This document shows, one piece after another, positions 1,920 through 14,508 of a stretch of DNA of 14,590 nt (positions are counted from its first letter, which is position 1; each line of letters begins with the position of its first letter). The translations under genes and the position numbers were made by a program. This DNA is from Actinomyces sp. ICM47. Lineage in GTDB: Bacteria; Actinomycetota; Actinomycetes; Actinomycetales; Actinomycetaceae. The stretch is taken from the NCBI RefSeq assembly GCF_000278725.1, contig NZ_ALCA01000059.1, forward strand, positions 1 to 14,590, read 5' to 3'. The notes under the pieces are model-generated. The model was not told the origin of the DNA. It saw only the letters and a program-made list of their open reading frames with translations, and did no database searches.

Positions 1920-1951
1920 CCCCGGCCTCGTCCATCGTGACGAGGCCGGGG
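1920..1951 (+). terminator. Intrinsic terminator between convergent genes (GAGGCCGGGG hairpin, copy 1)
   Basis: A perfect 13-bp stem (1920-1932 with 1939-1951) closes a 6-base loop and is followed by TTGTTT on the plus strand, the form of a Rho-independent terminator for the AGCS gene. It lies 34 bases beyond the stop of the leftward gene ending at 1986 and may also stop that transcript, although there is no T-run on that side. The stem carries the word CGAGGCCGGGG found in the other intergenic hairpins of this window. Confidence 0.85.
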
Positions 1952-2980: not shown

Positions 2981-3019
2981 GCCCCGGCCTCGTCCCAGGA
3001 ACATGAACGAGGCCGGGGC
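2981..3019 (-). terminator. Terminator of paralogue 2 (GAGGCCGGGG hairpin, copy 2)
   Basis: A perfect 13-bp stem (2981-2993 with 3007-3019) encloses a 13-base loop and is followed on the minus strand by ATCTTTG. It sits 32 bases beyond the stop codon of the gene ending at 3052. Its loop is identical, base for base, to that of the hairpin at 4155-4193, which shows that the two are copies of one ancestral terminator rather than independent hairpins. Confidence 0.8.
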
Positions 3020-3051: not shown

Positions 3052-3939
3052 CTACGCCGGCACACGTACGAAGCGCGCTCGGATCTGCACTCCCCCGGTG
3101 TGCCCGCACGCGGACAGGGCTCGAGCCACTGCGTCGGCGGCCCACCCGAGCATCTCAGGGCCCCCGTGCGGGGCGCGCAGAGCGGCAGTCACTCCGGTGC
3201 CGGAGGCCATGGAGGACTCCACAGAGAGCCCCATCTGCACGGACGAGGCCAAGGCCTCGGTAAAGCCCGAGGGGGACAGGGCCTGTCCCTTGTATCGCGG
3301 GCTCGCCGACGACCTCAACCACCAGTGCCTGAGCCTCGGCGTCTGTCCCTTGTATCGCGGGCTCGCCTCGACGTGGATGAGCGGACCGGGGGAAACCAGG
3401 GACAAATCGAGCGCACCGATTAGCAGGCTGCCGTCTTCCCACGGTTTGTTTGCGGTGGAGCGGGCGTAGTCCGGGGGCAGGTCGAGCTCGAAGACGCACT
3501 CGTCGACGCGCACATCGGCGACGAGTTCGAGCGTGGCCACGGAGGCAATCACAGATGCCACGAAGGGGATGTGCCTGCCCACGTCACCGAGCCACGTGTC
3601 GACGATCGCGTGGCACATCGCGCGGCCGGCGGCGTCCGTGGCAGACTCCCCCGCCATGCCGGGCGCCCTCTGCCCATCAACGCCCTTGTCTCGCGGCGGC
3701 ACCTTGCTGTCGCCCACGAAAAAGTCGAAAGCGTAGAGCCCATGATGGGTGCGATCGTCGTCGTAGGCGATGAATCCCAGCCCCGTGCCAATGAGCACGG
3801 ACAGGAAGGCATCGTAGAGGCACTCGCTGTCCTGCGCAAAGAGGTCCGCCGCGTGCGGCGTGCGCGGGTCCAGCTGGCCGACCAGCCACGCCTGCAACGC
3901 CACGTAGCCCTCATTTGTCACACAATCGTCGAATCTCAC
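3052..3939 (-). CDS. Hypothetical protein, tandem paralogue 2, with internal repeat insertion
   Basis: A 295-residue paralogue of the protein at 1986-2801 and equally unrecognised. GTG 3937-3939 is chosen because AGGAGG (3945-3950) lies 5 bases upstream and the first residues (VRFDDCVTNEGYVALQAWL) match the neighbour. The open frame continues upstream but that part is not conserved. The two proteins align along their whole length and are closest at both ends. The middle differs in a hydrophilic loop near residues 78-100. Copy 2 also has about 20 extra residues after the shared VEA, containing SPRYKGQ twice at a 20-residue interval. Copy 1 has only a short Ser/Pro-rich stretch there. The insertion keeps the frame and is rich in Arg and Trp (RHWWLRSS), unlike the acidic rest of the protein. 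The gene is flanked by hairpin terminators on both sides, so it is probably a single-gene transcript. Confidence 0.8.
   Translation of the reverse strand: MRFDDCVTNEGYVALQAWLVGQLDPRTPHAADLFAQDSECLYDAFLSVLIGTGLGFIAYDDDRTHHGLYAFDFFVGDSKVPPRDKGVDGQRAPGMAGESATDAAGRAMCHAIVDTWLGDVGRHIPFVASVIASVATLELVADVRVDECVFELDLPPDYARSTANKPWEDGSLLIGALDLSLVSPGPLIHVEASPRYKGQTPRLRHWWLRSSASPRYKGQALSPSGFTEALASSVQMGLSVESSMASGTGVTAALRAPHGGPEMLGWAADAVARALSACGHTGGVQIRARFVRVPA
3283..3367. repeat. 25-bp direct repeat at 60-bp interval inside paralogue 2
   Basis: The 25 bases at 3283-3307 are repeated perfectly at 3343-3367 (both begin CTGTCCCTTGTATCGC), leaving 35 bases between. The period of 60 keeps the reading frame and encodes ASPRYKGQ twice. 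A 17-bp palindrome, GGGACAGG-G-CCTGTCCC (3273-3289), overlaps the first copy. The tandem paralogue lacks the whole segment, so it was gained after the gene duplication or lost from copy 1. Confidence 0.9.
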
Positions 3940-4154
3940 GGTAACCTCCTTGTTCCGCCGCGCAACGCTTGTGACACCCATGATGACAGAAAGTCGACAG
4001 CCGCGGGCGCTTTTCGCGAGAAACTTCCTGCACAACGGGCGGAGCGGCCGCCGACGCTGCCACCACCAAGACCGCGGCGGCTCCGCCAGCACCGCGATCA
4101 CCTCCTCCGCCCGCGAACGCACCCACCGGCACCCGGCGCACGAGGCACAAGGGT
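3940..4154. promoter_or_regulatory. Regulatory region of paralogue 2
   Basis: Besides the AGGAGG site of the gene at 3052-3939, this gap holds TGACACC (3972-3978) and TGACAGAAA (3984-3992), matching the element upstream of paralogue 1. The remainder to 4154 is very GC-rich with imperfect inverted repeats (around 4033-4085) and no gene that I can support. The short open frames here lack ribosome binding sites and conserved features. Confidence 0.4.
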
Positions 4155-4193
4155 GCCCCAGCCTCGTCCCAGGAACATGAACGAGGCCGGGGC
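4155..4193 (-). terminator. Terminator of the dehydrogenase operon (GAGGCCGGGG hairpin, copy 3)
   Basis: A 13-bp stem (4155-4167 with 4181-4193) with a 13-base loop lies 20 bases beyond the stop codon at 4214. The single plus-strand mismatch, A4160 against C4188, becomes a G-U pair in a minus-strand transcript. The hairpin is therefore fully paired only in RNA made leftward, as expected for the end of this operon. ACCCTTGTG follows rather than a true T-run. Confidence 0.75.
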
Positions 4194-4213
4194 CCTATCG
4201 CGCGAGCGCGCGC

Positions 4214-5815
4214 TTACTCCGTGGCGAGCAGCGCCTCCTCGGCCTCCTTGGTCCACAGGCCGGCGGCGTCGAGCTTCGCGGCGACCGTCGGCAGCTTCTC
4301 GGCGAGCTCGGACACGGGGGTCAGGCCCAGGTCGTGCATCATCGGGAAGACCATGATCTTGCCGCCCGACGTGCGGTTGATGACCGAGTTGATGGCGTCG
4401 CCGAAGCCCGCCATGCCGGTAACTGCCCACAGGGAGATCGTGGTGTCGATGACGCCGTCCTCGATCTTGCGCAGCACCGTGCGCATATCGGACACATCAG
4501 AGCCGGAGGTGCCCAGCATGAAGATCTGGCGTTCGATGATGCCCTGCAGGTCAAAATCGCCGAACGTGCCGGCCGGAATGCCCGCGAACGCGTTGAGGAT
4601 GCCGCCCTGGGCCAGCAGGTCGACGGCCTGGGAGACCAGCGCCGGGACGGGCACGAGGCACGTCGCGTAGGTGTAGCCGTGCTCGAGGGGCGTCGAGGCG
4701 GTGTTGATGATATCCAGCGGCACGCCGTTCTTGTCGGCGGTCGGGCCGACAACCTTTGTCAGGTTGGCCAGTCGCTCGTCCGATAGGTCGGTGCCGACGA
4801 CGGAGATGCCGGGGACACCCGAGGTGACGGCACGCATCGTGTGCATGACGCCCATCGGGCCGGCAGCACCGACGAAAACGCAACGGTCGTTCTCTCGCAG
4901 ATCGCCGTTGGCGGGGATCCAGGCATAGCCCTCGCGCGGATCCGAGCCCGTTGTGCCGCAGAAGCGGATGAAGTCGTAGTGGACGCGTCCGATGTCCAGG
5001 GACACCTTACGAGAGATCGCGGCGCCACCCAGGACGACGCACATGGTGCCGCGGGTGCCGATCAGCAGAGCGGCCTTCTCGATGGCGTCGGCGTCCGAGC
5101 CGAAGAACACGACGTCGTCGAACTCTCCCTCGACGCCCTCAAGCTCCTCAGCGGCAACGCGCACAACCTCGGCGGGCTTATGCTCGGCGGTTAGCGCATC
5201 GATGTCGCCCTCGCCGACGACCAGCAGGCGCCCGCCGTCGGCGACATGATCGCGCTCGGCCCACGCGTAGGAGCCCTCGACGGTCGCCCACGGTTCGATG
5301 AGGCCAACGGCGGCGGCCGACGGCCCCTCCGACACGTGGATCAGGTACTCTTCCCCGTCCGGGGACACGACGCAGCGCTCGTCGACGACGACGTATTCCT
5401 CGAGGGCACCATCGAAGTTGTACCCGAAGGCACCGTTGGACTTCGCGGTGCGCAGGTGCTTCCAGTCCGCCTGGACCAGCAGACGGTCGCCAACCTTGAA
5501 GTGGGTGACGGCCTCGCCGACCTGCACGACGCGGACGACGGGCTCGTGGCCGGGAGTCACCGCCTCCTGATTCGGGTGGTACGACGGAATGTCCTTCAGC
5601 GCATCCAGATCGATGCCCGCCACGACGTCGGACTTGCGCGGGTGGCTATCGAACTGGTGAAGCAGCTTCGTATCGGAGAAGCAGATGCCGCAGGCTTCAA
5701 CCTCGAGCAGGATCTGCGTCGGGCCGACGGGGTCGACGGGCTTCGCCGGGTTAACGACGAACTCCTCCTTGCCGACAATTTGGATGGCGTACTGGGTGGA
5801 GGGAACCTGGGTCAT
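4214..5815 (-). CDS. SorE/YggP-like zinc-dependent MDR dehydrogenase with duplicated Rossmann region
   Basis: A 533-residue medium-chain dehydrogenase, last gene of the operon. The family oxidises or reduces polyols and ketoses (L-sorbose-1-phosphate reductase SorE is the nearest described relative that I recall). The catalytic GroES-like half has ACGIC with the zinc ligand Cys42, PGHE with His90 and Glu91, and IEP with Glu174. The four-Cys structural zinc loop is absent. VFVGAAGPMG (313-322), followed by SVVGTDLSDER, is the NAD-binding Rossmann motif, and the C-terminus WTKEAEEALLA matches the SorE/YggP tail. It is more than 100 residues longer than SorE. The excess, about 190-305, contains a partial Rossmann unit whose end (GTMCVVLGG to FCGTTGSD, 256-292) parallels GGILNAFAG to MLGTSGSD (404-440). 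The ATG at 5815 has AAGGAG 6 bases upstream. The frame stays open further upstream but overlaps the preceding gene. The substrate is unknown. Confidence 0.85.
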   Translation of the reverse strand: MTQVPSTQYAIQIVGKEEFVVNPAKPVDPVGPTQILLEVEACGICFSDTKLLHQFDSHPRKSDVVAGIDLDALKDIPSYHPNQEAVTPGHEPVVRVVQVGEAVTHFKVGDRLLVQADWKHLRTAKSNGAFGYNFDGALEEYVVVDERCVVSPDGEEYLIHVSEGPSAAAVGLIEPWATVEGSYAWAERDHVADGGRLLVVGEGDIDALTAEHKPAEVVRVAAEELEGVEGEFDDVVFFGSDADAIEKAALLIGTRGTMCVVLGGAAISRKVSLDIGRVHYDFIRFCGTTGSDPREGYAWIPANGDLRENDRCVFVGAAGPMGVMHTMRAVTSGVPGISVVGTDLSDERLANLTKVVGPTADKNGVPLDIINTASTPLEHGYTYATCLVPVPALVSQAVDLLAQGGILNAFAGIPAGTFGDFDLQGIIERQIFMLGTSGSDVSDMRTVLRKIEDGVIDTTISLWAVTGMAGFGDAINSVINRTSGGKIMVFPMMHDLGLTPVSELAEKLPTVAAKLDAAGLWTKEAEEALLATE

Positions 5816-5859
5816 GACTGACTCCTTCACTGGGAAAACGATGGTGGGAACGAGAGGGA

Positions 5860-5913
5860 CGAGGCCGGGGTACCCGAGGAGGGGACCGTGACTACCCTGG
5901 GTCCCCGGCCTCG
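5860..5913 (-). promoter_or_regulatory. Intercistronic hairpin with alternative pairing (GAGGCCGGGG copy 4)
   Basis: The 106-base gap between the two dehydrogenase genes contains an 11-bp perfect stem (5860-5870 with 5903-5913) with a 32-base interior. Inside it a second, 7-bp stem, GGGGACC (5881-5887) with GGTCCCC (5900-5906), uses four of the same bases, so the two exclude each other. The downstream gene keeps its own strong ribosome binding site. The hairpin may be a partial terminator, an RNA-processing or stability element, or an attenuator. There is no T-run after the stem. Confidence 0.5.
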
Positions 5914-5921
5914 AGAGGGTG

Positions 5922-6944
5922 TCAGGAGAGCATGACCTGGCCGCCCGTGACGGGCACGGCCTGGCCGGTCTCGTACTCTTGTTCGACGATGTAGAAGATC
6001 GCGCGCAGGACGTCGATGCCCTGGGCACCGCGGTGCATGGGGACCTTCGCCTCGTAGAACTCCTTGACGTCGGCGACCGTCTTGGCACCGGGGACCTTCC
6101 CGGAGTTCAAGTACTGGACGAAGAGACCGCGGTCCGGGTCGGACCAGAGCGGCCCGTCGTAGAAGTTGCCGGGGCAGATCGCGTTGACCTTGACGCCGTG
6201 GGCGACCATCTCGAGGGCGAAGGACTGGACCAGGCCGATACCGCCGAACTTGGAACCCGCGTAGGCGGCGTTCTTGTTCGAGCCGACCAGGCCGGACTTG
6301 GAGTTGATCTGGATGATGTCGGTCAGCCACTCGGGGGCGGTGGAGTGCTGGCGGGCCAGCAGCTGACCCAGGTGCTTGGTGACCAGGAAGAAGGCCACGT
6401 AGTTGATGTCCGTCGACAGGCGGAATGCCGAGGCGTCCTGCTCAAGGACGGAGCCGGCGCGCACGATGCCCGCGTTGGACACGACCAGGTCAAGGCCGCC
6501 CGTGACGCGCTCGATCTCGGCGGCCATCGCGGCCACGGAGTCCTCGTCGGCGACATTGACGGTGATCGGGTGGGCGACGCCTTCGCCGCCCAGCTCGGCT
6601 GCCTTCGCGACCGCGCCCTCACCGTTCAGGTCAGCGACGTACACGAAACAACCGGCGTCCACCAAGCCTCGCGCAATCTCAGCACCGAAGCCCTGGGCAC
6701 CGCCCGTGACGAGGGCGACGCGGCCGTTGATGGTGCGCTCGCCGGTGCGGGTCGGGCGGACCTCGTAGGTCTCCTCCCCCACCCGCACGACGACGGGAAG
6801 CTCCGTCTCCTTCAGAGAGCAGGGGCACACCTCGGCGAGGGGGCCGTCGAAGGTGACGGTCGGCTCGGCCTCGCTGGGGGCCACGATGACCGGGCGACCG
6901 AGGGCCTTGAGGAACAGGCCGCGTACCTCGGGAGCGTTACTCAT
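5922..6944 (-). CDS. SrlD/SorD-like short-chain dehydrogenase with N-terminal extension
   Basis: A 340-residue NAD(P)-dependent oxidoreductase. Residues from about 72 onward are a classical SDR: TGGAQGFG (80-87) binds the cofactor, NAG is at 157-159, the catalytic triad is Ser215, Tyr228 and Lys232, and the tail PVTGGQVML is typical. The stretch IIQINSKSGLVGS and AYAGSKFGGIGL closely resembles sorbitol-6-phosphate 2-dehydrogenase (SrlD), which points to a polyol or polyol-phosphate substrate. The first 70 residues are an extra module absent from SrlD, with a VCPCSLKE motif (Cys40, Cys42) that could bind metal or serve a redox role. The start at ATG 6944 gives only a weak AAGAG site but keeps this module, and no good internal start exists near residue 70. 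It lies 27 bases after the PHP gene, clearly in the same transcript. Confidence 0.88.
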   Translation of the reverse strand: MSNAPEVRGLFLKALGRPVIVAPSEAEPTVTFDGPLAEVCPCSLKETELPVVVRVGEETYEVRPTRTGERTINGRVALVTGGAQGFGAEIARGLVDAGCFVYVADLNGEGAVAKAAELGGEGVAHPITVNVADEDSVAAMAAEIERVTGGLDLVVSNAGIVRAGSVLEQDASAFRLSTDINYVAFFLVTKHLGQLLARQHSTAPEWLTDIIQINSKSGLVGSNKNAAYAGSKFGGIGLVQSFALEMVAHGVKVNAICPGNFYDGPLWSDPDRGLFVQYLNSGKVPGAKTVADVKEFYEAKVPMHRGAQGIDVLRAIFYIVEQEYETGQAVPVTGGQVMLS

Positions 6945-6971
6945 GATGGTTCTCTTTTCTCGACGCGTTCG

Positions 6972-8291
6972 TCAGTTGATCGATGTTGCTCGGGCGGCGA
7001 GAGCGACGGCGTCCTCACCGTCGGCAATCGCGCGGCCCAGGGGCGCGTACTCGCTGATGCGCTCCGCCAGGGCCTCGGGGGTCAGGCGACCCGTGCGGCC
7101 CAGCAGGTGCAGGGAGGGGTCCACGGAGGACAGGGCCTCGTGCGCGACGAGCGCCCACGTGGCCTCGTTGAGGTCGGCGAATTCGGGGCGGCGCAGCTCC
7201 TCGCAGGTGAAGCACTGGCGGGGCTGGTTGATGTCCACTCCCGAAATCTCGAGCATGCCGTGGGCTGCCGCGAGCACGTGGATGCGCGCCAGCTGCTCGG
7301 GGGTGTTGCGCGGGGGCATGTAGGTGACGGCGCGCAGGCCGATGGACTCCATGTGCTCGAAGAGCTCATCGAGGAAGTCGTCCTCGAACTTCTCAGCCTT
7401 CTTGTCGCCCGTCGGCGAGGCGGACACGTCGCCCAGGTAGGCGTAGGTGGCGATTGCGCCAACCGAGTCGGCGAAAGCGACGACCTCGGCCGCGCTCGGC
7501 AGCTCGTCGGTCGGCTGGATGTAGATGCGATCCAGGTAGTTGGCTTTCAGGACGCCCAGCAGGTCGTACATGAGGTGCGGGTTATCGGCGTCGGACAGGA
7601 CGGCGGCCAGGGACGCGGGAATCTCGACGCCCATCTGCGCCAGGCCCTCGGTCAGCGCCGGGCCGCGTCCGAATCCGCGGATCAGGGCCGAGGCCATGGC
7701 AGCAAGCAGGTGACGCTCAGTAATTCCGCCGCCGTTTGCGTACTGCGAGATGCCGACCATATCGGCCTGCGGGTCGAAGGGCTCCAGACCCAGGTCGGTG
7801 AGGATCTGGTTGGCTCGCTCTGCCATGGCGAGCGTGCGCTCCAGGCGGGCAGCGCGCCCCGGAGCAAGCCACTCGGCGACCTTCTCGCGTGCCGGTGCGG
7901 GCACGCCCTGGACAGTCATGTAGGCCACGCCCACGGAATCGGGGTTGTTGAGCTTGCGCTGAGCTAGCGGCGTGCCCTCACCGAATCGGGCACGGATTTC
8001 GAAGCCCGTGACGGAACCCATGCCGAGGACGGACGTGGCCTCGCTCATTTCAGCCGCCGCGCCAATGGAGTCATGGTCCACCGAGCCGACGACGCGCAGG
8101 CCTGCCCGGCGCGCGAGCAGCGCGGCGTGCGTCGGCGTGTAGGGGCTGAAGGAGAAGCACGTGTGGATGTGGTTGTTCGACTCGGGCACCCAGCTCGGGA
8201 AGTGCTCGTCGGCTGCGACGACGCGCAGCGCCTCGATGCGCTGGGCCGGGGTGGCGGCCGGGTCGTTGGTGATGTCCATGGGTTCTGCCAT
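6972..8291 (-). CDS. PHP-domain metal-dependent hydrolase
   Basis: A 439-residue protein with Polymerase and Histidinol Phosphatase (PHP) signatures: NNHIHT (His41, His43), SVDHDS (Asp72, His73, Asp74), TGFEIRA (Glu98), GITERH (His194) and GVDIN (Asp353 to Asn355). PHP enzymes use a two- or three-metal centre to hydrolyse phosphate esters and, in some families, other bonds. Here the first ligand block begins with Asn-Asn rather than Asp-x-His, and the last is Asp-x-Asn rather than Asp-x-His, so the centre is not that of TrpH or HisK. Cys360 and Cys363 follow closely. It is longer than the ~280-residue TrpH type. The start is uncertain. ATG 8291 has only GAAGAG directly before it, and ATG 8279 is four codons later. 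Its place between a 2-oxoacid dehydrogenase complex and two polyol-type dehydrogenases suggests hydrolysis of a pathway intermediate. Confidence 0.8.
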   Translation of the reverse strand: MAEPMDITNDPAATPAQRIEALRVVAADEHFPSWVPESNNHIHTCFSFSPYTPTHAALLARRAGLRVVGSVDHDSIGAAAEMSEATSVLGMGSVTGFEIRARFGEGTPLAQRKLNNPDSVGVAYMTVQGVPAPAREKVAEWLAPGRAARLERTLAMAERANQILTDLGLEPFDPQADMVGISQYANGGGITERHLLAAMASALIRGFGRGPALTEGLAQMGVEIPASLAAVLSDADNPHLMYDLLGVLKANYLDRIYIQPTDELPSAAEVVAFADSVGAIATYAYLGDVSASPTGDKKAEKFEDDFLDELFEHMESIGLRAVTYMPPRNTPEQLARIHVLAAAHGMLEISGVDINQPRQCFTCEELRRPEFADLNEATWALVAHEALSSVDPSLHLLGRTGRLTPEALAERISEYAPLGRAIADGEDAVALAARATSIN

Positions 8292-8331
8292 CTCTTCGTT
8301 GGGTGGAGAAAAATGTGGAGAAAGGAAGGGG

Positions 8332-8377
8332 CGCGAGGCCGGGGCTCAGGTGAGGAGGAGGTTGCCCCGGCCTCGCG
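8332..8377 (-). terminator. 14-bp perfect hairpin after E1 gene (GAGGCCGGGG copy 5), likely partial terminator
   Basis: CGCGAGGCCGGGGC (8332-8345) pairs perfectly with GCCCCGGCCTCGCG (8364-8377) around an 18-base loop. On the minus strand it is followed by CCCCTTCCTTTCTCC, a pyrimidine tract short of a true T-run. It could lower transcription of the downstream PHP-SDR-MDR genes relative to the E2-E3-E1 genes. No clear promoter follows it before the PHP start. Confidence 0.6.
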
Positions 8378-8378
8378 T

Positions 8379-8441
8379 GGCTCGCGTCAGGGAATGCGAG
8401 CCTCGGACGGGGGCGGGCCGGAAAGGGGGAGCAGCCCGTCC
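8379..8441 (-). other. Two further hairpins between E1 and PHP genes
   Basis: GGCTCGC (8379-8385) pairs with GCGAGCC (8396-8402), and GGACGGG (8405-8411) pairs with CCCGTCC (8435-8441). With the 14-bp hairpin at 8332-8377 they fill the 160-base gap with three consecutive stem-loops. The gap is five or more times longer than those among the upstream genes of the operon. These may protect the 3' end of the E2-E3-E1 message or form a processing site. Confidence 0.4.
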
Positions 8442-8451
8442 CCAGTGCTTG

Positions 8452-10905
8452 TTAGAGGCCCTCGCGGTTCAGGCGAGCGATCTCAGCCTCGGTCGCGTGC
8501 TTCGTGGTGGGCACGTGGCCGGGCAGGGGCAGGATGCGCTCGTGAATCGCGTCGAGGATCCAGGAGACCTGCGGGAAGAAGAACGACTCCAGCTCGGGTC
8601 CGGGCGTGATGCCGTTGCGCGAGCCGACGACGGCGATCGGCGCGTCGAGCGCGTCGAAGGCGAGGGTCTGCACGTTGGCGGCAACCGTGTTGAGGAAGGA
8701 TCCACGCTCGACCGCGTCCGAGGTGAGGACGAGGCGACCGGTCTTCTTCACGGACGCGATGAGCTTGTCGTAGTTCAGGGGGGCGACGAAGCGCAGGTCG
8801 ATGACCTCAGCGCTCAGGCCGTACTTCTCAGCTAGGACGTCGGCGGCTTCGAGGGCCTTGTACACGGTCGCGCCGTAGGCAGCAATCGTGATGTCGGATC
8901 CCTCGCGGCGGATCGCCGGCTCGCCTTCTTCGGTCTCGTAGTAGCCCTCGGGCACGCCGCCAGGCTCGAAGTCCTCGCCCTTGTCGTAGAGCTTCTGGCT
9001 CTCCAGGAACACGACCGGATCGGTTCCGGCAAGCGCCAGGTTGAGCATGCCCTTCGCGTCGGTCGGGGTGGTCGGGAAGTAGACCTTCAGGCCCGGGATG
9101 TGGGCGACGAGTGCACTCCAGTCCTGGGAGTGCTGCGCGCCGTACTTGGCACCCACGGACACGCGCAGGACGAGGGGCATCTTGAGCAGGCCGGCGCTCA
9201 TCGACTGCCACTTGGCCATCTGGTTGAAGACTTCGTCGCCGGCGCGGCCCAGGAAGTCGCAGTACATGAGTTCAACGACCGCGCGGCCACCGGCCATCGC
9301 GTAGCCGACGCCGGCACCCACAATCGAGGCCTCGGCGATGGGCGAGTTGAAGAGGCGACGGTACGGCAGGGCCTCGGTCAGGCCACGGTAGACGGCGAAG
9401 GCACCGCCCCAGTCGCGGTTTTCCTCGCCCCATGCGGCCATCGTCGGGTCGGTCTTGAAGCGGTGCAGCATCGCCTCGAAGAGACCGTCACGGAACTGGT
9501 ACATGCGCATCTTGGAGACAGGCTTGCCGTTCTCATCGACGGAAGAACGCACCTTCTTGGCCAGTGCCTTGACGCGCGGGTTGTCCTCAAGGTCGATCTC
9601 GGGGGTCGCGTCGTCAAAGGCTTCGACCTTCTCGTTGGAGAACATGACGGTGTCGATGTAGCCGTCCGCGACGCGCGGGGTGGCGTCGTCGTCGATGGCC
9701 AGTTCGAGGACCTTGACCAGCTTGTCGGTCAGCGAGGCCGCGTAACCGTCGATCTCGTCCTGCGTGGTCAGGCCGTTCGAGATGAGCAGGTTCGAGTATT
9801 CCTTGATGCAGTCAACCTGCTCCCACAGCTCGACCTCTTCCTTCGTGCGGTAGGAGGAAGCGTCCGACGGCGAGTGGCCGGAGAAGCGGTAGGTGATGGT
9901 GTCCATGAGGACGGGGCCGCGGCCCTCCTCGAGGATCTTCTTCTTGCGGGTGGTCGCGTCCGCAACGGCCAGCGGATTGAGGCCGTCAACGCGCTCGGCG
10001 TGCATGGCCTCGGGGTTGAGGGCCGCGCCCACGCGGGCAAGGATCTCATATCCCATGGTCTCGCCGAAGGTCTGACCACCCATGCCGTAGAAGTTGTTGA
10101 AGAAGTTGAACAGGATCGGCGGGTTGCCACCGTCCTCCTCGCGCCACAGGGAGCGGAACTGATCCATCGACGCGAAGTTCAGAGCCTCCCACACGGGACC
10201 ACAGGCCAGGGCGGCGTCACCGACGTTGGAGACGACGATACCGGGCTTGCGGTTGATGCGCTTGAACAGGGCCGCGCCGTTCGCAATCGGGGCGGAGCCG
10301 CCGACGATCGCGTTATTCGGGTAGGAACCGAAGGGCAGGAAGAAGGTGTGCATCGAGCCGCCCAGGCCGCGGTTGAAGCCGGACTTGCGGGCGAAGATCT
10401 CCGCGAGGGCACCGAAGAGGATGAAGTTCTCGGTGAGGTCCTTCGTGTCCTTGTAGCCGATCTTTTCGGCGTAGGACAGGGTCTCGCCGCCGAGGAAGCC
10501 CTTCATGATGCCCTCAAGCTGGCCCTCGTCCATCTGGTGCATGGCCGAGTAGCACTTGGCGAGAATCTCACCGTGCGAGCGGTGGGAGCCGAAGATGAAG
10601 TCCTCAGGCGACAGAACGAAGCTTTGACCGACGTAGGCGCTCTCCTGGCCAATGCCGAGGTGGGCGGGGCCGCGGTGGTTGTACTCGATGCCCTGCCAGG
10701 CGCCGGTCTTCTTGATGGAGTCGAGCATCGACTCGAAGGTGCGCACGACGATCATGTCGTGGAGCATCTGGACCATGCCTTTTTCGCCGTAGCGGGCGAG
10801 TTCGGTCTCACGGTCGAAGGTGTACTGGTTGACGGGGACCTCGGGGAACTTCACGTATCCCGGGCGACGCACCTCATTGGGGTCGATGATAAGAGACTGA
10901 GTCAT
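8452..10905 (-). CDS. Fused E1 alpha-beta subunit of a 2-oxoacid dehydrogenase complex (thiamine diphosphate)
   Basis: An 817-residue fusion of the E1 alpha (about 40-400) and E1 beta (about 465-800) chains of branched-chain or acetoin-type 2-oxoacid dehydrogenases, which decarboxylate a 2-oxoacid and pass the acyl group to lipoyl-E2. Alpha features are GSHRSHGE (107-113), GGSMH (182-186), the thiamine motif GD (229-230) with NN (270-271), and RFSGHSPSD (340-348). Beta features are NSPIAEA with catalytic Glu525, QHSQ with His592, [17 protein letters not shown] and VVFLE. Unusual points are GDA in place of GDG, about ten extra residues between GD and NN, and an insertion of roughly 35-40 residues before GGSMH. 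It is not the AceE type usual for actinobacterial pyruvate dehydrogenase. The neighbours E3 and E2 supply the rest of the complex. ATG 10905 has AAGGAAGAG just upstream. The 2-oxoacid substrate cannot be deduced. Confidence 0.92.
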
Positions 10906-10935
10906 TGTTCTACTCTTCCTTGATGTAGTTATTCG

Positions 10936-12303
10936 TTAGAGCTTGACGGCCCACGCGGCTTCGCGGATGACCTCGGAAACAGTGGGGTGCGGGAAGACGA
11001 CCTGGCGCAGGTCCTCGACGGTCAGTTCCATCTCGAGGACGGCCTGCGCGCCCCAGATCATCTCGGCGGCGTACGCGCCCAGCACGTGGATGCCCAGCAC
11101 CTGGTGGGTCGTGGGGTCCACCAGGATCTTCGCCTCACCGGGTGCCTTAAAACCGTTCTCGGCGATGAAGCGGCCCGACATGAGGGCGGGAACCTTGGCG
11201 ACGAGGACCTCACGGCCCTCTCGCTGAGCGGCGGACTCGGTCAGACCGACGCCCGCGGCCTCGGGGATCGAGAAGACGGCCCACGGGACGGTGTGCCAGC
11301 GCATGACCTCGCCGCGCTTCTTCGCGGTCGGATCGAGGATGTTCGCCGAGGCGATCTCCGCCATACGGTAGGCGGCGTGCGCCAGGAGGGAGCGTCCGGT
11401 GACGTCGCCGATAGCCCACACGTTGGGCAAATTGGTGCGCATCGTATCGTCGACGACGATGCCGCGGTTGATCTCGAGGCCAGCCTCCTGCGCGCCCCAG
11501 CCCGCCGTCGCGGGACGGCGGCCAACGGCCATGAGGACAACGTCGGCCTCGACACTCAACTTGTTCTCGCCCTTTGAGTAGTGGACGGTGCCTCCGTCAA
11601 GGGACTCGACGCGGCAGCCCAGCTCGAAGGTCACGTCCTTCATGGCGGCGCGGGCCTTGGCGGCCAGGTCGTCGTCCATGAACGGCAGGATCTCGGGGGC
11701 CATCTCGATGACGGTCACCTGCGAACCCAGGGTGGAGTACAGGGAGGCGAACTCGACACCGATGACGCCGCCGCCGATGATCGCGAGGCGGGAGGGGACC
11801 TCGGGCAGGGACAGGATGCCCGTGGAGTCCACCAGCGCCGGATTGTCCTGGGTGCCGGGAAGCGGCGGCATGGCCGGCACGGAACCCGTGGCGATGATGA
11901 CGTGGTCCGAGGTGTAGGTCGTGCCCTCGACGGTCACGCGACCGGGGGCGTCGAGGTGGCCTCGTCCGTTGATGACGGTGACGCCCGCCTTACGCTCGGT
12001 GGCTGCAACGCCCGCGACGAGGCCCTTAACGACCTGATCTTTCCAGGCCTGCATCTTTGTCCAGTTGACGGCAACGCCGCTGGCGTCCACGCCGAACTGG
12101 CTGGCTTCCTTGGCGTGCAGGTAGTTCTTCGCGCCGTTGAGCAGGGTCTTGGTGGGAATGCAGCCCACGTTCAGGCAGGTGCCGCCCAGGTACTGTTCCT
12201 CGACGAGGGCGACCTTCTTGCCCGCGTGCCCGAGGCGCTCGGCGGCCAGGTAGCCGCCGGGGCCCGCGCCGAGGACGATGACGTCAAAATGCGTGTCACT
12301 CAT
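10936..12303 (-). CDS. lpdA: Dihydrolipoyl dehydrogenase (E3)
   Basis: A 455-residue flavoprotein that reoxidises dihydrolipoyl-E2 and reduces NAD+. The FAD site is GAGPGG (12-17), the redox-active disulfide is Cys43 and Cys48 within GGTCLNVGCIPTK, the NAD site is GGGVIG (177-182), and the C-terminal catalytic pair is His439 and Glu444 in HPTVSE. Length and order of domains are standard, with no N-terminal lipoyl domain. All catalytic residues are present, so it should be active. The start at 12303 has AGGAAAGAG upstream, overlapping the end of the E2 gene, which is 16 bases away. This spacing shows co-transcription with E2 and, after a 30-base gap, E1. It probably serves this complex, though E3 proteins can be shared between complexes. 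Confidence 0.96.
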   Translation of the reverse strand: MSDTHFDVIVLGAGPGGYLAAERLGHAGKKVALVEEQYLGGTCLNVGCIPTKTLLNGAKNYLHAKEASQFGVDASGVAVNWTKMQAWKDQVVKGLVAGVAATERKAGVTVINGRGHLDAPGRVTVEGTTYTSDHVIIATGSVPAMPPLPGTQDNPALVDSTGILSLPEVPSRLAIIGGGVIGVEFASLYSTLGSQVTVIEMAPEILPFMDDDLAAKARAAMKDVTFELGCRVESLDGGTVHYSKGENKLSVEADVVLMAVGRRPATAGWGAQEAGLEINRGIVVDDTMRTNLPNVWAIGDVTGRSLLAHAAYRMAEIASANILDPTAKKRGEVMRWHTVPWAVFSIPEAAGVGLTESAAQREGREVLVAKVPALMSGRFIAENGFKAPGEAKILVDPTTHQVLGIHVLGAYAAEMIWGAQAVLEMELTVEDLRQVVFPHPTVSEVIREAAWAVKL

Positions 12304-12319
12304 GAGTATTTCTCTTTCC

Positions 12320-13660
12320 TCAGGCCAGGACCGTCACGTCGATGTTGTCGATGGCGGCGACCAGGTCGCGCAGGAACCGGGCGCCGTCCGCACCGTCGAT
12401 GACCTGGTGGTCGATCGTCAGCGACAGGTTGAGGCGCTGCTCCACGCCGATCGTGCCGTCGGCTGCCACGACCGGGCGCGGGGTGATTGCGCCGACACCC
12501 AGGATGGCTGTCTGGGGCAGGTTGATGACGGGGGTGAAGGTCTCGATACCGAAGGAGCCGATGTTGGAGACCGTGAAGGTGCCGCCGCTCAGGAAGTCGG
12601 GGGCGATGGTGCCGTCGATGGCACCGCCGGCCAGGCGCTTGGCTTCGTCGGAGAACGCCTTGAGGCCCAGGGCCTGCGCGGAGCGGATGACGGGGACGAG
12701 GAGGCCGCGCGGGGTGTCGCATGCGAAGCCGAGGTGGACCTGCTCGAACTGGGTGAGTACACCGTCCTCAAGGTGGGCGTTGAACACGGGGTACTTGGGC
12801 AGGGTGCGCGACACGGCGAAGCAGACCAGGTCGTTGAGCGTGATCTTGCCCAGGCCCAGAGCCGGGTCGGCGTTCTTGACCTTCTTGCGCATCGCGAGGA
12901 TGCCGGCGGCGTTCGCGGTGGTGTTGAGGGTCAGCTGCGCGGTGGTCGTCAGGGACTCCATCATGCGCTTGGCGACGACCTTGCGCACACCCTTGAGCGG
13001 GGCGGAGGTCGAGGCACCGGGGTAATCGGCACCCGCAGGGGCGGAGGCAACGGGGCACGAGGCCGGGGCGGCCTCGGGCGTTCGGCCGGCGTCGGCAACG
13101 CTCACGCGGCCACCAATGCCGGTGCCTTCGGTGGCCTGGACACCGGCGGCGCGCGCGGCGGAGGTCAGGACGGGACCTGCAGCGATCGCGGCGGCGACGT
13201 CACGCTCGATGACGCGACCGTGGGGGCCGGAACCCTCGGTAATGGTCGAGGCATCCAGGCCCGCCGAGGCGGCCAGGGCGCGGGCACGTGGGGAGACCGC
13301 GCCGGTGGCTCGCTCGGTGGCAAAGGCGGGGGCAGCCTGCTCGGGTGCGGTGGTTGCCTTGTCGGGTGCATCCTCGACGGGTGCGGCGTCACCGCCGGGC
13401 ACGAGGCCGGAGATGTCTTCTCCGGGTTCACCGACGATGATGAGCGGATCCTTGACGGGGACCTCGTCGCCTTCCTCCCACAGGAGCTTCAGGACGGTGC
13501 CCTCGGCGGTGGAGGGGACCTCCATCGTCGACTTGTCCGTCTCGATGGACGCGAGGGTCTGGTCGACGGCGACGCTGTCGCCTTCGGCGATCATCCACTC
13601 GACGATGATGCATGACTCAACAGAGTTGCCCAGCTGGGGCATCACCACGATGGTGGCCAT
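12320..13660 (-). CDS. Dihydrolipoamide acyltransferase (E2) of a 2-oxoacid dehydrogenase complex
   Basis: A 446-residue E2 that takes the acyl group from E1 onto its swinging lipoyl arm and transfers it to coenzyme A. Residues 1-76 are one lipoyl domain, with the lipoylated Lys43 in ETDKSTMEVPS. An Ala/Pro/Glu-rich linker follows. An E3-binding (peripheral subunit) domain spans about 121-157 (SPRARALAASAGLDAS to GPHGRVIERDV). A second, shortened copy is visible at about 165-191 (TSAARAAG to TGIGGRVSVAD). The catalytic acyltransferase domain runs from about 220 to the end, with His418 and Asp422 in DHQVIDGA. ATG 13660 has a full AGGAGG 6 bases upstream. This site overlaps the stop codon of the repressor gene (TAGGAGG), so the two are likely translationally coupled. 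The acyl specificity is unknown. Confidence 0.93.
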   Translation of the reverse strand: MATIVVMPQLGNSVESCIIVEWMIAEGDSVAVDQTLASIETDKSTMEVPSTAEGTVLKLLWEEGDEVPVKDPLIIVGEPGEDISGLVPGGDAAPVEDAPDKATTAPEQAAPAFATERATGAVSPRARALAASAGLDASTITEGSGPHGRVIERDVAAAIAAGPVLTSAARAAGVQATEGTGIGGRVSVADAGRTPEAAPASCPVASAPAGADYPGASTSAPLKGVRKVVAKRMMESLTTTAQLTLNTTANAAGILAMRKKVKNADPALGLGKITLNDLVCFAVSRTLPKYPVFNAHLEDGVLTQFEQVHLGFACDTPRGLLVPVIRSAQALGLKAFSDEAKRLAGGAIDGTIAPDFLSGGTFTVSNIGSFGIETFTPVINLPQTAILGVGAITPRPVVAADGTIGVEQRLNLSLTIDHQVIDGADGARFLRDLVAAIDNIDVTVLA

Positions 13661-13670
13661 GTAATTCCTC

Positions 13671-14420
13671 CTAGACGATGCGCAGCTTCGTGCGCTCGGC
13701 CAATTCCTTGATGGATTCTTCGGGGATCTCATCGTCGGTGATGATTCCGGTGACCTGGTCGATCCCCATGAAGGTGACGAAGCCGGCTTCCCCGTACTTG
13801 GAGGAATCTGCGAGCAGCCACGTCTCTTGTGCGCGTGTGCGCATGATGGAACCAACCTGCCCACCCTCAACGAGTTGGGTGGTCAGGCCGCGATCAACGC
13901 TGAAGCCGTCCGTTCCGAGGAACGCAACGCGCGCGTTGAAGTCATTGATAGCGCGCTCGGCGACCGGCCCCACGAGGGACTCGGACTCGGCGCGGAAGTG
14001 CCCGCCCGTCAGTGTGATGTTCAGGTTCGGGTTGGATCGGGCGTTTGCGAAAACAAGGACGGAGTTGGTCAGAACCTGAACTCCGCGCTTGCCGGTGAGG
14101 TACTTGACGATGAGGGCGCAGGTGGTGCCGGCCTCGATCATGATCCGGTCGTCGTCGTAGATCATGTCCGCGGCGGCCCGGGCGATGCGCTCCTTCTGAT
14201 CGACGCGATCATTCTGGCGCAGGTGGATGTTGCGGAAGGTGGTGGGGCGTGCCCCTCCGTGGGTGCGCACGAGGTAACCCTGCTCATCGAGGACCTTCAG
14301 CGAGGCACGCACGGTGACGGGCGAAACCCCCAGGTCGGAGGCGAGCTGGGCGACACTCACCTCACCCTCGCGGGCGAGGCGATCCAGGATGTAGTTCGTG
14401 CGTTCTTCTGCACGTCCCAT
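13671..14420 (-). CDS. DeoR/GlpR-family transcriptional repressor
   Basis: A 249-residue regulator, first gene of the leftward operon. Residues 1-57 are the winged helix-turn-helix (RTNYILDRLAREGEV, VAQLASDLGVSPVTVRASL, then RTHGGA). The rest is the DeoR sensor domain, with EAGTTCALIVKYL, VLTNS, LTGGHFRAESESLVGP, FLGTDGFS, DSSKYG and IITDDE. This domain, related to ribose-5-phosphate isomerase, senses sugar phosphates. A phosphorylated sugar or polyol intermediate is therefore the expected inducer. ATG 14420 is preferred to the TTG at 14435, because GAGG lies 7 bases upstream and the protein begins MGRAEERTNYIL like its relatives. Matching operator half-sites surround its own promoter, so it likely represses itself and the six genes that follow. 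Confidence 0.93.
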   Translation of the reverse strand: MGRAEERTNYILDRLAREGEVSVAQLASDLGVSPVTVRASLKVLDEQGYLVRTHGGARPTTFRNIHLRQNDRVDQKERIARAAADMIYDDDRIMIEAGTTCALIVKYLTGKRGVQVLTNSVLVFANARSNPNLNITLTGGHFRAESESLVGPVAERAINDFNARVAFLGTDGFSVDRGLTTQLVEGGQVGSIMRTRAQETWLLADSSKYGEAGFVTFMGIDQVTGIITDDEIPEESIKELAERTKLRIV

Positions 14421-14459: not shown

Positions 14460-14508
14460 CTTTCACTTTCGTTAAGGACAGAATAGTCATTTAAACGAAA
14501 GCATGCAA
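14460..14508 (-). promoter_or_regulatory. Operon promoter overlapped by DeoR-type operator
   Basis: Reading leftward, TTGCAT (-35, 14503-14508) is followed after exactly 17 bp by TATTCT (-10, 14480-14485), with the start of transcription expected near 14473. Half-sites CTTTCGTT (14466-14473) and AACGAAAG (14494-14501) are perfect inverted copies. One lies between the boxes and one at the transcription start. A third, partial CTTTCA (14460-14465) lies directly beside the first, giving a tandem CTTTC pair. TTTCGTT-type repeats are typical DeoR-family operators. The leader to the ATG is about 50 bases. Confidence 0.75.

Follow-up and report, generated by a model that had tools for sequence, protein, structure and literature searches.

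What does a bacterium degrade with an operon that joins its own 2-oxoacid dehydrogenase complex (components E1, E2 and E3) to two sugar-type dehydrogenases? Such an operon lies on contig NZ_ALCA01000059.1 of Actinomyces sp. ICM47, which we analysed as one stretch of 14,590 nucleotides (the window). The initial annotation described seven same-strand genes encoding, in order, a DeoR-family repressor, E2, E3, a fused E1, a PHP-fold protein, a short-chain dehydrogenase/reductase (SDR) and a medium-chain dehydrogenase/reductase (MDR), and all seven are confirmed in that order, on the minus strand (the strand of all operon features and hairpins given below). A polyol, a cyclitol or a ketose (or its phosphate) had been proposed as the substrate. 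We conclude with high confidence that the pathway instead acts on L-fucose, a 6-deoxyhexose that ranks among the main sugars in human milk and in the glycans of mucus. For the mechanism as a whole, we modestly favour the reading that the operon is the core of an L-fucose catabolic pathway in which acyloin cleavage replaces fuculose-phosphate aldolase.

The operon is linked to L-fucose genes

The window holds neither a kinase nor a transporter, as initially noted, and the entry step had accordingly been left open. In relatives, the entry genes are found directly upstream, beyond the end of the window: an ABC transporter, FucI, an FGGY kinase, a LacI regulator and a FucU-like mutarotase. The three transporter components (ATPase, permease and binding protein) and FucI were present in 15 of 15 upstream stretches fetched from Schaalia. 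The other three genes, for the kinase, LacI and the FucU-like protein, were found within 19 of 20 operon loci; the remaining locus has them in its upstream stretch. FucI scored above the curated cut-off in both copies tested individually. The kinase matched rhamnulokinase best, below the cut-off, and its product, judged by its family, would be L-fuculose-1-phosphate; the mutarotase weakly matched L-fucose mutarotase. A GH29 fucosidase lies close to one locus.

We then searched 35 genomes of the genus, leaving out of the counts low-scoring hits on other PHP proteins (E 1e-3 to 1e-7) and, for E1, 40% partial matches in G014 and G018. FucI (TIGR01089, above cut-off) occurred in 26 of the 35, the same 26 that have the SDR; 25 of them carry PHP and E1 at full length, and G011 carries both in partial form. 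FucI and the operon were never seen apart (0/35; Fisher p 1.4e-8), and the whole gene set was missing from nine. FucI shares contig and strand with the full-length E1 in all 25 genomes that have one, starting 8.4–12.9 kb ahead of it, and in G011 it is likewise on the contig and strand of the operon.

These distributions bear on two alternatives. That the operon serves a polyol, cyclitol or ketose pathway with no link to fucose draws on the homology of both dehydrogenases to SrlD and SorE, but this is very improbable given the co-occurrence and linkage with FucI (26/26 in the genus) and, as described below, with FucI or RhaA (16/16 in Spirochaetota); we rejected such a substrate on that linkage. 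A housekeeping pyruvate dehydrogenase that lies near sugar genes by chance would account for the usual domains of E2 and E3. However, full-length E1 of this family was found in the genus only together with the PHP and SDR genes, never outside the set, and 9 of 35 genomes lack the whole set, so that we rejected this idea on distribution and regard it as scarcely credible. The view of a single catabolic gene set with a dedicated complex thus stood.

A member of the class II aldolases (PF00596, E ≤ 0.001), the family of fuculose-phosphate aldolase (FucA), was not found in 7 of the 26 FucI genomes (G001, G010, G012, G022, G023, G024 and G032), six of which are 99–100% complete. A 2017 survey left a 'missing fuculose-phosphate aldolase' unresolved for some Actinobacteria. 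The operon, present in all 26 FucI-bearing genus genomes searched, is a candidate answer.

The gene set is conserved and in spirochaetes also accompanies L-rhamnose genes

The gene-neighbourhood search that had been suggested, run here with PHP as the query, showed the set to be conserved and accompanied in Schaalia by the FGGY kinase and ABC transporter. We scanned genomes with a PHP alignment and kept as loci the 80 best of the 266 relatives returned. Among these, the SDR gene comes after PHP in 75 of the 77 loci that are long enough to show it, and E1 lies directly upstream of PHP on the same strand in 55 of 70 long enough for it, or anywhere within the fetched stretch in 60 of 70. DeoR, E2, E3, E1, PHP and SDR are all present in 53 of the 80. 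The 80 loci come from Schaalia and its relatives, from Arachnia and Tessaracoccus, and from many spirochaetes. Shadow open reading frames in high-GC loci were removed by eye from the neighbourhood table; the homology tables are independent of them. Our open-access literature search found no description of this gene set.

In 296 Spirochaetota genomes, the threshold for counting a gene as present was E ≤ 1e-100 for FucI and E ≤ 1e-60 for RhaA. The curated cut-off is exceeded by 42 of 44 FucI matches but by only 8 of 24 RhaA matches, most of the other RhaA matches lying just under it. The PHP gene occurs in 16 genomes, all 16 with an E1 of at least 58% identity. FucI was present in 12 of them, RhaA in 11, both in 7 and at least one in 16, compared with at least one in 40 of the 280 genomes without PHP (p 3.8e-13). 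In G341, a single core operon sits between a rhamnose module (RhaA, a class II aldolase, RhaM and an ABC transporter) and a fucose module (a binding protein, LacI and FucI). The entry genes upstream in relatives are L-fucose genes, joined in spirochaetes by L-rhamnose genes.

Eight further spirochaete genomes (G081, G094, G106, G117, G125, G132, G139 and G146) carry fused E1 proteins of another family, 35–39% identical to the window E1; these genomes have no PHP gene and were left out of the E1 count.

The two dehydrogenases resemble a keto-group-shifting pair

In the L-sorbose pathway, a SorE/SorD-type pair relocates the ketone of a ketose-1-phosphate to the opposite end of the molecule. The initial annotation likened the two dehydrogenases to ketose- and polyol-phosphate enzymes, and their likeness to SorE and SrlD bears this out. 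The spirochaete MDR at this position is 50–51% identical, over 100% of its length, to three annotated sorE proteins (L-sorbose-1-phosphate reductase). Among the best 20 of 93 records, identity is 47–57% to the SorE/YggP-type group and then falls to 25–27%, which marks this MDR, on similarity, as a SorE-family protein. The MDR of the window (positions 4214–5815, 533 residues) appears to be a divergent relative, matching the SorE-type MDR of locus L104 at 28.7% (E 4e-17) with a second piece at 23.7%. A SorE-type copy occupies the position of the window MDR in L039, a genus member (66% identical to the spirochaete protein), and in L062.

The SDR (5922–6944) carries an N-terminal extension of about 70 residues. 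Its top NCBIfam model is PRK12384 (SrlD) at 203 bits, short of the curated cut-off of 307; it is 33–39% identical to annotated srlD and matches PDB 5o3z at 150 bits, the next match being 97. The SDR is therefore best described as SrlD-like, a statement about how it might work.

One alternative that these enzymes bear on keeps L-fucose as the substrate and has the dehydrogenases produce a diketone or keto acid of a deoxyhexose phosphate, after which PHP would hydrolyse a C–C or ester bond and E1-E2-E3 would decarboxylate the resulting 2-oxoacid. PHP-fold proteins are mostly hydrolases and E1-E2-E3 complexes act mostly on 2-oxoacids, and the spirochaete MDR has a weak match to IolM (82 bits, cut-off 450). 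Yet this MDR is far nearer to SorE, a ketose-phosphate reductase, the E1 relatives described below accompany acetoin-type E2 parts, and inspection of the loci, made without profile searches for such genes, showed no dehydratase, lactonase or aldonate gene. We consider this alternative improbable.

The E1 component fits acyloin cleavage

The E1 gene (8452–10905) encodes a fused alpha-beta thiamine-dependent dehydrogenase of 817 residues with E1_dh, Transket_pyr and Transketolase_C domains. E2 (12320–13660) has lipoyl, E3-binding and acyltransferase domains by Pfam, its top NCBIfam models being acetyltransferase E2s, all below cut-off, and E3 (10936–12303) is a dihydrolipoyl dehydrogenase (TIGR01350, 464 bits versus a cut-off of 409). 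Most model matches of E1 are to pyruvate dehydrogenase E1, at scores far below the cut-offs (TIGR03182, 179.7 versus 393.85; PRK11892, 238.4 versus 454), and E1 is 29% identical to a pyruvate pair and to a branched-chain pair.

In a tree of E1 proteins, the window E1 belongs to a separate clade of fused proteins of about 820 residues and groups with a rhizobial fused E1 (52% identity, support 100/100), not with the acetoin pair L141, which adjoins an acetoin reductase and a butanediol dehydrogenase. The tree is small and midpoint-rooted, with L142, L147, L148 and L150 (no annotated gene in the stretch) left out, and its branches are long, so that its deeper branching order is unsure. The nearest other E1 group comes from rhizobia and Pleomorphomonas. 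There, E1 lies next to a small lipoyl protein, of which one was tested, and an alpha/beta hydrolase, tested in three cases; the top model was acetoin dehydrogenase E2 in every case, below its cut-off. Sugar genes lie nearby as well. L138 has a xylulokinase that scores above cut-off, L136 has a sugar kinase together with a psicose-epimerase-like protein (both below their cut-offs), and L137 has an arabinitol-dehydrogenase-like protein (below cut-off) and an annotated lipoyl synthase. E1 fits acyloin cleavage but does not prove it.

As an observation in its own right, the rhizobial and Pleomorphomonas plasmids L136, L137 and L138 combine a fused E1 with a split AcoC-like E2, a sugar kinase and a sugar transporter in a sugar locus that perhaps serves 1-deoxy-ketoses.

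A proposed route from L-fucose to acetyl-CoA

In the pathway that we favour, L-fucose would be taken up by the upstream ABC transporter and converted by the FucU-like mutarotase, FucI and the FGGY kinase to L-fuculose-1-phosphate. The SorE-like MDR would reduce C2 to give L-fucitol-1-phosphate, and the SrlD-like SDR would then oxidise C5 to give, numbered from the other end, 1-deoxy-D-tagatose-6-phosphate. With its methyl ketone and neighbouring hydroxyl, this product would be an acyloin with the pattern of acetoin. E1-E2-E3 would cleave the C2–C3 bond as acetoin dehydrogenase cleaves acetoin: thiamine would attack the ketone, the acetyl group would pass to lipoate and then to CoA, and the remainder would leave as a tetrose phosphate, by stereochemistry D-threose-4-phosphate. 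L-rhamnulose-1-phosphate would likewise be converted through 1-deoxy-D-sorbose-6-phosphate to acetyl-CoA and D-threose-4-phosphate; the two sugars would converge on these end products, since the position that distinguishes their ketoses is the one turned into the aldehyde carbon. The stereochemistry of both 1-deoxy products was computed assuming that of SorE. Expression of the gene set would be repressed by DeoR.

The PHP protein (6972–8291), assigned by a PHP superfamily fold test, is the least easily placed. Phe48, invariant in 30 sequences, aligns with the Asp of the motif-I SDG, and position 355 is Asn, while H41, H43, H73, E98 and D353 are invariant. We take these positions to be the metal ligands of the usual PHP motif, in which His would be expected at 355. 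The earlier proposal of a hydrolase that yields a 2-oxoacid gained no direct support, given these differences and the AcoC-like partners and sugar kinases of the E1 relatives. A plain phosphatase was also disfavoured, on the altered positions and because the ATP spent by the kinase would be wasted. We favour, over simple phosphate removal, an epimerase or isomerase that makes the tetrose unit usable as D-erythrose-4-phosphate. PHP had no match in the plasmid records, and therefore no annotated neighbour informs its step.

In its full form, this proposal would give bacteria a third way of degrading L-fucose (and L-rhamnose): after a SorE/SrlD redox shift, a thiamine/lipoate complex with a fused E1 would oxidatively cleave a 1-deoxy-ketose phosphate to acetyl-CoA and a tetrose phosphate, aided by a PHP-fold enzyme whose altered metal site would have turned it from a phosphatase into an epimerase, isomerase or lyase. 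We advance it tentatively, as a real possibility that stops a little short of being probable. If it is true, acyloin cleavage of sugar phosphates would have been put to use a second time, independently, in the rhizobial loci that combine a fused E1 with sugar kinases.

Several observations weigh against acyloin cleavage of a sugar phosphate. The pathway intermediates and enzyme activities are predicted from the genes, and the proposed scheme needs no PHP step. By identity, the acetoin type of the window E1 is not clear: it is 34–35% identical to five pairs, including both the acetoin pair L141 and L143, which is annotated as pyruvate dehydrogenase and so weakens the argument. The window MDR is only about 29% identical to the SorE type, and neither type of MDR was found in the fetched stretch of several Propionibacteriaceae-type loci (for example, L066, L068, L069 and L078). 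E1 of this family was not found in 4 of 20 PHP-locus genomes (G061, G062, G065 and G070; completeness not stated), and, conversely, 2 of the 18 Spirochaetota genomes with it (G089 and G122) lack PHP. RhaA exceeds its curated cut-off in only 4 of the 11 RhaA-matching PHP genomes. Class II aldolases, untyped, occur in 19 of the 26 FucI genomes of the genus, and one adjoins RhaA in the spirochaete rhamnose modules L109, L110, L165 and L170, three of which have the E1 set in the same stretch.

In L110, L165 and L170, this rhamnose-module protein has 370–390 residues and occurs with RhaA and RhaM. It might be a rhamnulose-1-phosphate 4-epimerase that feeds the fucose core, a candidate role suggested because the fuculose and rhamnulose phosphates differ only at C4.

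Part of the same evidence could be explained by a route through lactaldehyde or lactate and dihydroxyacetone phosphate. PHP would then be a metal-dependent aldolase or a diketone hydrolase acting on (oxidised) fuculose-1-phosphate, the SDR a lactaldehyde-type dehydrogenase and E1-E2-E3 an ordinary pyruvate dehydrogenase for lactate-derived pyruvate. L-lactaldehyde is common to the classical fucose and rhamnose routes, which would explain use with both sugars; a second match of the SDR, at 137 bits, is to the dehydrogenase portion of RhaD/RhaEW-type proteins, the PHP site is unlike that of phosphatases, and the predominance of pyruvate dehydrogenase among the E1 model matches, together with a fused pyruvate dehydrogenase E1 (L143) as similar to the window E1 as the acetoin pair, points the same way. 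However, the SDR scores higher against SrlD (203 bits), no role is left for SorE chemistry, E1 falls far under the pyruvate dehydrogenase cut-offs and, at full length in the genus, it occurs only with the operon. We regard this route as unlikely, although deserving of consideration.

Comparison with known systems

Like the classical FucI-FucK-FucA pathway, the proposed one has FucI, an FGGY kinase, a FucU-like mutarotase and a transporter upstream; unlike it, the window operon has no aldolase and has the SDR, MDR, PHP and E1-E2-E3 genes instead. With the L-sorbose pathway it shares a SorE-family reductase, a SrlD-like dehydrogenase and the expected keto-group shift, but the sugar is different and a 1-deoxy sugar phosphate needs a different outlet; sorbose phosphotransferase system genes were not noticed at the loci, where no search for them was made. 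Acetoin dehydrogenase (AcoABCL) has the same kinds of component (a thiamine E1, a lipoyl E2 and an E3), and the nearest E1 relatives occur with AcoC-like parts. By contrast, the window E1 is fused (817 residues, versus 659 for the AcoA and AcoB pair of L141), the acyltransferase domain of the window E2 is of the ordinary kind, the window carries neither an acetoin reductase gene nor a butanediol gene, and the proposed substrate is a sugar phosphate. Pyruvate dehydrogenase is alike in domain make-up and in the acetyl-thiamine intermediate that we propose, whereas the window E1 is 29% identical to PdhAB of L145 and 34% to the fused pdhA of L143, scores under the pyruvate dehydrogenase cut-offs and, in the genus, occurs only with fucose genes. 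The L-fuconate (Fcl/Fum) and RhaEW routes are other alternatives to FucA or RhaD for 6-deoxyhexoses, some with SDRs; no such gene is in the window operon. According to two papers (PMC5583593, PMC3870299), these routes either have a lactone and keto acids as intermediates or rely on a fusion of a class II aldolase with an SDR.

If the proposed pathway is correct, fucose would yield acetyl-CoA and a tetrose phosphate, not lactaldehyde and 1,2-propanediol. Predictions of what fucose feeders hand to their neighbours would change, and sugar phosphates would join the substrates of 2-oxoacid-dehydrogenase-like complexes.

Regulation and intergenic hairpins

The first gene (13671–14420) encodes the DeoR-family repressor (Pfam DeoRC, 1.5e-47, and HTH_DeoR), whose top NCBIfam model is AgaR, at a score below the AgaR cut-off. 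Upstream of it, at 14466–14501, the palindrome CTTTCGTT...AACGAAAG is a probable DeoR operator, judged from the conservation of its arms in related loci: a left arm of the CTTTCGTT type precedes DeoR in 17 of 20 and the right arm in 6 of 20.

GC-rich hairpins lie in the E1–PHP gap (8334–8375; fold z −5.4 for 8292–8452) and the SDR–MDR gap (5860–5913), each built on an inverted CCCCGGCCTCG pair, and after the last gene, MDR (4156–4192; fold z −5.0 for 4130–4215). A terminator scan that requires a T-run listed none at 4156–4192. Given these three hairpins, the operon may be transcribed in segments. In line with this, the PHP and E1-E3-E2 genes face apart in the spirochaete loci L085, L089 and L117.

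The GC-rich palindrome CCCCGGCCTCG ... CGAGGCCGGGG recurs in five intergenic gaps of the window (1920–1951, 2982–3018, 4156–4192, 5860–5913 and 8334–8375). With at most one mismatch, it has 17 matches in the window versus 1.5 expected; a 20-base version with at most three mismatches occurs 37–52 times per genome in three Schaalia-type genomes, and its reversed control 0 times. These palindromes are either repetitive extragenic palindromic (REP)-like elements or terminators without a T-run.

Neighbouring genes and related loci

Rfam and tRNA scans of the window found nothing. On the 3′ side of the operon lie two paralogous genes with no assigned family, followed by an AgcS symporter in the opposite orientation. 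The tandem paralogues (1986–2801 and 3052–3939, both on the minus strand; 271 and 295 residues) had no match in Pfam or NCBIfam, and a homologue was seen only in the closest relatives, between MDR and AgcS.

In L083, a spirochaete core operon, four related open reading frames of 197–203 residues stand in tandem between E3 and E1 (4837–7320), spaced by 612–630 bases. Beside the core operon of L062, an Actinomycetaceae metagenome-assembled genome, the stretch 13890–20103 encodes MtnA and an LsrF-type thiolase, both above cut-off, together with a class II aldolase-family protein and a bifunctional aldolase/SDR, both below cut-off; we read it as another deoxy-sugar or nucleoside salvage cluster. 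The window is Schaalia-like: the nearest genome compared has 21% of sampled words in common with it, and all seven operon proteins of Schaalia odontolytica FDAARGOS_732 (L042) are 91–98% identical to those of the window. Operons as near to that of the window as the S. odontolytica one were also found in records titled Sanguibacter keddieii (L043) and Xylanimonas cellulosilytica (L061), and the names on these two records are probably wrong.

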